A stretch of 46,651 nucleotides of DNA from a virus: positions 1 to 46,651 of IMG/VR virus record IMGVR_UViG_3300031586_000005; one strand, written 5' to 3'. This document shows, piece by piece, positions 15,600 through 45,523 of this stretch (within the stretch, counting starts at the first letter, position 1; every line of letters begins with the position of its first letter). A program made the translations under genes and the position numbers. The notes under the pieces were generated by a model. The model saw only the letters and a program-made list of their open reading frames with translations. It was not told the origin of the DNA and ran no database searches.

Positions 15600-15627
15600 T
15601 TGACATTGAGTAAAGATGTGGTATAAT
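15600..15627 (+). promoter_or_regulatory. sigma70-type promoter, repeated family
   Basis: TTGACA (15600-15605), 16-bp spacer, TATAAT (15622-15627), preceded by GGATGTTTTTCAC as at 13208. The start point would be near 15634, giving a transcript that opens with the structured region and no nearby ribosome site. Confidence 0.88.
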
Positions 15628-15633
15628 GTAATA

Positions 15634-15970
15634 TAGATCTTGGAGCAAAACAATAATACTTCGTCACAAAGAAGAAAGTGATTGCGAGCCGGAATTGACA
15701 AGTTAAGAACAAACGCCGAAAGGCGGTTCACAAAGCGTTGGTTCCCAAGAGGGGCTGACATGGGAACATCTGGCCCGGCATTGCGTGGAGTCTTCCCAGC
15801 CGGGAAATAAATGAGGACCTATGCCTCTCATTAATTTAATAATGGAATTAAATATGGTGCAAAGGCTACCAAAGCTCCAGCCTAATAACCGGAAAATAGG
15901 TTGCTAAAGACCCTGCGTATAATATAAAGTCTCTGGCCAAGACAGAGCTATTTAATTCCATTTGTTTTTG
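15634..15970 (+). ncRNA. large structured noncoding RNA candidate, about 335 nt
   Basis: This is the longest gap inside the early unit and has no supported reading frame, but successive strong helices. CGCC-GAAA-GGCG (15714-15725, GNRA tetraloop) is capped outside by GAAC/GTTC. GTTCCCA (15741-15747) pairs with TGGGAAC (15761-15767). CCCGGC (15774-15779) pairs with GCCGGG (15799-15804). ATGAG (15811-15815) pairs with CTCAT (15827-15831). A perfect 14-bp stem, 15841-15854 with 15949-15962, encloses three hairpins (AGGCT/AGCCT, AACC/GGTT, CTCTG/CAGAG). A T-rich tail to about 15969 follows, as in a terminator. It does not fit tmRNA, RNase P or group I intron cores by eye. It could instead be a long 5' leader of the next gene. 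Confidence 0.62.
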
Positions 15971-15981
15971 AAAAGAGCAAA

Positions 15982-16158
15982 ATGAACGAAAAACATGAAA
16001 AGCATATACCACAGGGTAAATATGTTGGACATATCGAACATTTTCCGAATCAAACAGAAAACGTTTTTACGTTTATTATTGATGAAGCAGAGGACGATAT
16101 GTTAGTTGGTAAGGGTATTTCTCAAAAAATACATGTTACGGGCACAAAGAATGAGTGA
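15982..16158 (+). CDS. small acidic protein
   Basis: 58 aa (MNEKHEKHIPQGKYVGHIEH at the start), beta-rich. The upstream GAAAAGAGCAAA is only a weak ribosome site. It overlaps the next gene. It directly follows the structured RNA, so it would be controlled by it if transcription reads through. Unknown function. Confidence 0.55.
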   Translation: MNEKHEKHIPQGKYVGHIEHFPNQTENVFTFIIDEAEDDMLVGKGISQKIHVTGTKNE

Positions 16159-44755: not shown

Positions 44756-45523
44756 TTATAAATCTGTTCCATATACATTTAGTTTAGCCCTGTTGGTTCG
44801 GGCTACATTTCCATTATCCCTGCTATCATACAAGTTTCCCACCAACATATTATCAGCATCCTTTTTGGAATCTATGACAATCAAATCCTGTGTCAATTTT
44901 TCAGCCAATTGGGTATGAATACCTATTACGCCATCTTCTTGTGACTCTGCTACAGCAAGGCAATTCTCCAAAATGGCCTCGGTTGATTTTACACCACCCG
45001 GCAGAAAGTTACCTGCTTCCGTCGCTTTGGTGGGGTCTGCCTTGTAGTAGAACTGTATTCTATACGAACTATCAGGTTCTGGATAGAACATTATCTCATC
45101 GAACTCACCAATATCCGGGTCATAATCAGTCGTAACTATGGCGTAATAATAAGGGGCATAACCTACGACACCCGAAGCCCTTAGATTCATTATATTTTCA
45201 GGTGTAGTTCTGGCTATGTTTTTGAAACCAGCATTATCCTCATAGGTCGGGTCTGTTATTATAGATGAGAAGTCTTCAGGAAGCTGGTATCGCCATACAT
45301 TATCTCTCAAATTCATTGTGTGTAGCGGACGAAGAAAACTCCACTCCCAATAGTCACCGGATCGTGCATCAACAGGATATAGAAAACGCCTCAGACCTCG
45401 TTGGGCTATATCTTTACATGTAGTCAAGTCAGTGTCTGTAGGCGCTGTTCCAGTGTCAGTCAATCCTATGAAACCAGATATAAGTGTGTAAATATCGGCG
45501 TAAGTCAATCTTAAATTAGCCAT
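44756..45523 (-). CDS. head-tail adaptor (tail tubular A / gp4-like)
   Basis: 255 aa from the ATG overlapping the previous stop (TAATG). LTYADIYTLISGFIG, CKDIAQRGLRRFLYP, WEWSFLRPLHTMNL and YQLPEDFSSII are the ordered motifs of short-tail head-to-tail connector proteins. It binds the portal and starts the tail tube. Together with the propeller protein it supports a podovirus tail. Confidence 0.75.
   Translation of the reverse strand: MANLRLTYADIYTLISGFIGLTDTGTAPTDTDLTTCKDIAQRGLRRFLYPVDARSGDYWEWSFLRPLHTMNLRDNVWRYQLPEDFSSIITDPTYEDNAGFKNIARTTPENIMNLRASGVVGYAPYYYAIVTTDYDPDIGEFDEIMFYPEPDSSYRIQFYYKADPTKATEAGNFLPGGVKSTEAILENCLAVAESQEDGVIGIHTQLAEKLTQDLIVIDSKKDADNMLVGNLYDSRDNGNVARTNRAKLNVYGTDL

Follow-up and report, generated by a model that had tools for sequence, protein, structure and literature searches.

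GOLLD and ROOL are orphan RNAs encoded by phages and prophages; they are multiply pseudoknotted, often lie in tRNA islands and their function is unknown (PMC12286853). The theta ribozymes are small, pseudoknotted, HDV-like phage RNAs located at the 3' ends of tRNAs (PMC10879173). Type I hammerhead ribozymes also occur in phages and bacteria (Perreault et al. 2011, PMC3088659), and natural RNAs with a rearranged order and multiple pseudoknots have been described, in which it is the hammerhead itself that is permuted (Eckert et al. 2023, PMC10085705). The RNA described here can be compared with each of these systems.

The DNA analyzed, referred to as the window, is a stretch of 46,651 nucleotides from a virus (IMG/VR record IMGVR_UViG_3300031586_000005). 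It contains one copy of a conserved core RNA of 95 nt, at positions 15735-15829 on the + strand.

The Promoter and the Gap Behind It

Region 15600-15970 begins with an exact sigma-70 promoter that agrees with the consensus at 12 of 12 positions and has a TG before its -10 box. A preliminary description of the window had a consensus promoter firing into a gap without a usable reading frame, and this is correct on both points, as the + strand ORFs inside the gap are all 42 aa or shorter. The GNRA-capped stem that it reported is present as well (CGCC-GAAA-GGCG, at about 15715-15726), and so is the perfect 14-bp closing stem, an inverted repeat of 15840-15853 and 15950-15963. A similar perfect promoter lies upstream of the core copy in one of the relatives, L082. 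The features surrounding the core are the following.

15600..15627, + strand: promoter, TTGACA-16-TATAAT with extended -10; expected start near 15634
15708..15734, + strand: upstream hairpin GAAC..CGCC-GAAA-GGCG..GUUC plus ACAAA; resembles the upstream flank of one relative only, L084
15840..15963, + strand: separate 3' domain with the perfect 14-bp closing stem; z -2.5, no homologue found

The structural argument of the preliminary description has to be replaced. Eight strong helices had been taken as evidence of structure, but folding of the whole region is no better than that of dinucleotide shuffles (z -0.59), and the helices named are mostly other than the conserved ones. The 3' domain (15838-15965) is the sole unusually stable part of the region, and the core, when folded without pseudoknots, is slightly worse than shuffles (z +0.76), because its true helices are all pseudoknotted. 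The energy-model check that had been proposed speaks for structure in the 3' domain and gives no support for it in the region as a whole or in the core; judged by energy alone, the observation would pass for chance. Since pseudoknots make the energy uninformative, we dropped it as evidence. The T-rich end is not a canonical terminator and a 58-aa ORF starts at 15982, just past the region; for these reasons a discrete free RNA of ~335 nt is unsupported, and the conserved unit is 95 nt long.

Searches for homologues of the 124-nt 3' domain (15840-15963), including pattern searches, detected none. A scan of viral contigs for the sequence common to the window and the upstream flank of L084 gave no further copy, and no close relatives of the window phage were found through its uracil-DNA glycosylase gene. 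Elsewhere in the window, the protein encoded at 18395-18880 matches the N-terminal domain of a dATP/dGTP diphosphohydrolase in Pfam; its best PHROG is labeled 'endolysin; inhibits RNA polymerase', a label that looks wrong for this protein.

Finding the RNA Family

When the region was used as the query of a sensitive search through annotated phages, it matched three Arthrobacter phage records and a Microcystis phage (98 nt at 81% identity, E 1e-14), where the matching segment occupies a gap in a tRNA array. All of these matches are confined to window positions 15733-15830. Degenerate patterns made from the bases common to these first matches found 48, 42 and 11 viral contigs, and a looser pattern found at least 120. 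A slightly stricter core pattern, run on 257 Gb of prokaryote genomes, matched no more than four contigs, each of which came from a metagenome-assembled genome, and a plasmid collection searched with the window sequence gave no match. Altogether, more than 140 distinct members were found in phage and prophage DNA, of which 124 could be parsed in the gene order of the window and 19 are permuted. The search patterns fixed some bases, and so part of the 'invariant' columns reflects ascertainment; the variable positions of H1 and H5, as well as N5 and NL (see below), were left free, and K and M were never fixed together.

The structural alignment consists of 63 members. A covariance model of the core scores the window at E 2e-31, the window being part of the training set. 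When run on whole records of up to 536 kb, the model finds one copy each in 25 of 25, with the two permuted records showing as two half matches. The sole tandem pair of elements seen is at L101:260-440. The phages that carry the RNA infect Actinobacteria, Cyanobacteria and Gammaproteobacteria and include isolates that infect M. smegmatis, Arthrobacter and Enterobacter.

No Rfam 15 family matched the window or the scanned relatives at the gathering threshold, and with the core region the only matches down to E 10 are at chance level (e.g., Yfr11, E 1.9). ARAGORN found no tRNA or tmRNA in the window. The earlier statement that no familiar RNA family fits the region is thus supported. We found no description of the core RNA in the open-access literature, and as regards the RAGATH motifs, none of the families listed in Rfam matched. 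The RNA family is apparently undescribed and phage-specific.

The Core Fold

The core consists of two similar halves, A and B, and has four short helices in the 63-member alignment, each of which is crossed by another (H1 with H5 and H2 with H3). Its parts in the window are as follows.

15735..15829, + strand: core RNA, halves A and B; family member by alignment, covariation and covariance model
15735..15740, + strand: half A leader NCGUKG; N5 is G15735, and K is U15739, which pairs with M (A15811)
15741..15746, + strand: H1 5' strand, GUUCCC; pairs with 15762-15767; 99% of cells paired, 5 of 6 pairs double-changed
15749..15755, + strand: H5 5' strand, within the H1 loop; pairs with 15823-15829; 8 of 8 aligned pairs double-changed
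15762..15767, + strand: H1 3' strand, GGGAAC, followed by the conserved AUCUGG; from covariation and alignment
15774..15779, + strand: H2 5' strand, CCCGGC; pairs with 15799-15804; 99.7% paired, 4 of 6 pairs double-changed
15780..15783, + strand: loop L1, AUU plus NL (G15783); site of the hammerhead in about two thirds of the relatives, absent here
15784..15789, + strand: half B leader CGUGGA, conserved; first bases 3' of the cut in hammerhead-bearing relatives
15790..15795, + strand: H3 5' strand; pairs with 15813-15818; 99.5% paired, 5 of 6 pairs double-changed
15799..15804, + strand: H2 3' strand, within the H3 loop (pseudoknot); from covariation
15805..15812, + strand: conserved single strand, consensus GAAUAAMU, containing M (A15811); from alignment
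15813..15818, + strand: H3 3' strand; from covariation
15823..15829, + strand: H5 3' strand; from covariation

The covariation behind these helices is extensive. Paired cells make up 95.4% of the total, 23 of the 27 pairs have double changes (16 in shuffles), and double-change cells number 305, whereas shuffles have 70 and slid controls no more than 81. Covarying pairs in homologues were the preset test of the preliminary description, and they are found. A long-range pair joins K to M (15739 with 15811): among the 124 members in window order it is G-C in 99, U-A in 24 and unpaired in one, so that it is standard in 123 of them, and also in 19 of the 19 permuted copies. The last H5 pair is mostly U-G across members, which implies that the + strand is the functional RNA strand.

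The two halves have matching layouts. Half A is composed of NCGUKG, stem H1, a loop, AUCUGG and a tail; half B is composed of NCGYGGA, stem H3, a loop, CUA and a tail. The hairpin loop of each half pairs with the tail after the other half, forming H5 and H2. Covariation thus shows the predicted fold of the core to be pseudo-two-fold and fully pseudoknotted, with the K-M pair added to the two similar halves, and we infer that these halves descended from a homodimer. We are nearly certain that the family exists and that its secondary structure is real. Of the preliminary description, a structured RNA outside the familiar families remains, on the strength of the covariation and the lack of an Rfam match; its boundaries, its helices and the free, terminated status of the RNA are unsupported.

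A Predicted Hammerhead Ribozyme in Many Relatives

In members whose H2-H3 distance differs, CUGANGA, GAAA and the three stems of a type I hammerhead are present. This set (CUGANGA, GAAA and stems I-III) is complete in 96 of the 148 distinct half-B loci; about two thirds of the members have a complete hammerhead directly before half B, two examples being L047 and the Arthrobacter phage Constance (42741-42886). Hammerheads cut after C, A or U and never after G, and the base before the predicted cut (H17) is C in 58 cases, A in 34, U in four and never G. The predicted cleavage site of the insert coincides exactly with |NCGYGGA. In the window copy the hammerhead is missing; L1 there is just AUUG, without CUGANGA, GAAA or the three stems. 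Rfam hammerhead models gave no match at gathering among the many loci scanned, and none at E 5 in L019.

Some inserts have altered hammerhead cores and retain the pseudoknot core (L086:2500-2644, L111 and L186:4968-5040). Examples of the alterations are UUGAUAA in mycobacteriophage Gaia and CAAAA in an Acinetobacter plasmid; these inserts are probably inactive. Two loci from AT-rich phages, L065:5371-5558 and L067:5391-5577, have hammerhead-like inserts that share an unusually long stem III region (~60 nt).

Permuted Copies and Their Genomic Contexts

The 19 distinct permuted copies have the hammerhead first, then half B, a linker and half A. All 19 retain both cross-helices, N5 = NL and the hammerhead before half B. 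The permuted form is present in E. coli lambdoid prophages: among 5,426 complete genomes, 14 contain 80% or more of the query. In these prophages the element is found in the interval from the Q gene to the holin gene, immediately downstream of a terminator. In the T7-like Enterobacter phage SDFMU_EhYP, a permuted element lies between the capsid and tail genes, and in Pectobacterium phage Pappous one adjoins tRNA-Met.

A phage stem, ACAACAGGUAAGAGCANUG..CAGUGCUCUUUCCGUUGU, is common to the lambda late leader, E. coli lambdoid prophages and T7-like Enterobacter phages (L183:6037-6245; L187, lambda 44784-44860; L188:450-530). It is capped by a short segment in lambda, by another segment in phiKDA1 and Entb_48, which are relatives of EhYP, and by the hammerhead followed by halves B and A in others. 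Just downstream, the late-leader segment at lambda NC_001416 44844-44958 (L187:1501-1615) carries no annotation in lambda, and Rfam has no match to it; counterparts with 80-100% identity exist in numerous coliphage and Salmonella phage records (most of 211).

The promoters and neighbors of the whole family were also considered. A tRNA is found within 100 nt of the element in 29 of 123 members, with 7.5 expected, and all 46 of the tRNAs near elements are on the strand of the element. Some elements start 1 nt past a tRNA and stop 5-6 nt short of the one that follows. One phage tRNA array that bears the element also contains a complete tmRNA gene (L013:663-967, - strand). Most of the relatives lie in tRNA arrays or mRNA leaders and have no terminator; a nearby terminator occurs in seven of 121 members, and because of this rarity a terminated small RNA was rejected as the general form. 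A -10 box ends 6 nt before N5 in 11 members (2.8 expected), which means that transcription would begin at N5, and because of this subset an autonomous RNA remains plausible for the family. Starts of downstream genes are not enriched (28 versus 22.8 at random) and the gene products are diverse; consequently, a riboswitch for a specific gene was rejected.

Identity Covariation

An unusual pattern concerns two separate sites. N5, the base before CGUKG, and NL, the base before CGYGGA, both vary freely, being C, G, U and rarely A. They are the same base in 121 of the 124 members in window order and, among these, in 35 of the 36 short-insert members that have no hammerhead. This is a covariation of sameness and not of complementarity. 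On a rough and poorly resolved tree, 13 of the 15 differing nearest-neighbor pairs change both N5 and NL to matching bases.

One candidate explanation is a third strand outside the hammerhead that pairs with both N5CGU and NLCGY. Sequences able to do so show a modest downstream excess (17/36 versus 32/108 for other bases), and a few members (L024, L082 and L176) have clear outer stems of this kind, but the strand is missing in many members and we rejected it as a general explanation. A template duplication or an insertion-site repeat was judged unlikely, because the adjoining U/C differs between the two sites in some members, whereas N does not.

Possible Functions

Our favored reading, which we hold tentatively and with a little less than even confidence, is that the core would be a stable phage RNA that acts in trans during infection. 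It would be made from any strong transcript available, whether from its own promoter, a tRNA array or a late leader, and its ends would be set by the transcription start, by tRNA processing or by the built-in hammerhead. With the halves in the order A-B, the hammerhead cut would leave a two-piece RNA joined via H2 and H5; in the order B-A, it would release the RNA from the upstream transcript. The window copy would be a one-piece form with no hammerhead, within a longer leader transcribed from about 15634. Given that phages of Actinobacteria, Cyanobacteria and Gammaproteobacteria carry the core, its partner would likely be universal, such as the translation or transcription machinery, or else be other copies of the core RNA itself. 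The single copy, the indifference to neighboring genes, the several host phyla and a fold that survives interruption and permutation all fit an RNA of this type. However, several permuted copies have a terminator on one side and a late gene on the other, which we count against this reading, and a trans role would leave N5 = NL without an explanation.

The scarcity of terminators and the many copies in mRNA leaders also fit a cis role. The main rival, which we regard as possible but doubtful, is a processing or protection module in which the hammerhead would cut long phage transcripts and the pseudoknot would cap the new 5' end or join the cut pieces, and thereby set the stability of tRNA precursors and late mRNAs. 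The predicted cut at exactly the first base of half B would be expected of such a module, as would the same-strand position between tRNAs, the location in lambdoid prophages, directly behind a terminator and ahead of the holin gene, and that in a T7-like phage, with capsid genes on one side and tail genes on the other. It is harder to reconcile with the roughly one third of members that have no hammerhead, with genomes that have a single copy despite an array of 20-30 tRNAs and with the absence of a favored downstream gene. The near-perfect N5 = NL identity, which holds in 121/124 and 19/19 members, including 35/36 of those with short inserts, would be in keeping with a core that is itself catalytic, carrying out cleavage, ligation or strand exchange at two equivalent sites, |N5CGU and |NLCGY, which the pseudo-two-fold symmetry relates and one of whose cuts the hammerhead supplies or replaces. 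The unpaired bases at the junctions are highly conserved, and the sites flanking tRNAs resemble theta ribozyme sites (PMC10879173). Nevertheless, neither half has a known ribozyme core and N5 = NL could equally reflect a tertiary base-base contact, so we consider a catalytic core rather unlikely. In its fullest form, this would be a new catalytic or strand-exchanging RNA with two symmetric sites, descended from a homodimer, that exists in one-piece, two-piece and permuted versions and has gained or lost a hammerhead at one site; that too seems improbable to us.

The two other explanations carry far less weight. A natural aptazyme, in which the pseudoknot core senses a ligand and controls the hammerhead by swapping pairing partners, would make use of the conserved unpaired bases in the core and of the hammerhead stem I strand, which can in principle pair with N5CGU or NLCGY; there is no consistent downstream gene or pathway, however, and the N5 = NL identity persists where the hammerhead is missing, which makes this reading very unlikely. 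That the 335-nt region of the window is an ordinary unstructured leader whose similarity arose by chance would agree with its region-wide folding energy, which is no better than that of shuffles, but not with the match to an unrelated Microcystis phage (98 nt at 81% identity, E 1e-14); the covariation excludes it, the covariance model (E 2e-31, the window included in training) also speaks against it, and we give it almost no credence.

Whichever function applies, this appears to be a widespread and strongly constrained family of phage RNAs that both Rfam models and folding energy missed, and it may be the reason for certain untranslated gaps that phages have in their tRNA arrays and late leaders. 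A ribozyme at one exact point of another conserved RNA, the permutation of the halves and identity covariation are an unusual trio that, to our knowledge, is rare or unseen together. Because phage isolates for M. smegmatis, Arthrobacter and Enterobacter carry members, cleavage, processing and function are directly testable.

Comparison with Known RNAs

By the features tested, the core is not a member of GOLLD, ROOL, the phage hammerheads or the theta ribozymes. A tmRNA identity was likewise rejected, both from the ARAGORN result for the window and because L013 has a separate tmRNA besides the element. An HDV-like or theta ribozyme, with its P1-P2-P3 nested double pseudoknot and catalytic C, was considered and set aside, since the core topology has no P3 and there is no Rfam match; in addition, the core also occurs far from tRNAs and in leaders. 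The likeness to GOLLD and ROOL is that the new core is also encoded by phages and prophages and pseudoknotted. The family is enriched near tRNAs (29 versus 7.5), but the window has no tRNA. GOLLD and ROOL, to which neither a sequence match nor an Rfam match was found in the window or the scanned relatives, differ in being several hundred nt long, as compared with 95 nt for the core, which has two similar halves and is often accompanied by a hammerhead.

The insert of the relatives, on the other hand, has every core element and a rule-conforming site of the type I hammerheads of phages and bacteria (Perreault et al. 2011, PMC3088659). What distinguishes it from known hammerheads is its position inside another conserved RNA or directly against it, at a single fixed point. 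The arrangement is also the reverse of the permuted hammerheads described by Eckert et al. (2023, PMC10085705), as here it is the surrounding RNA that is permuted and the hammerhead that is conventional.
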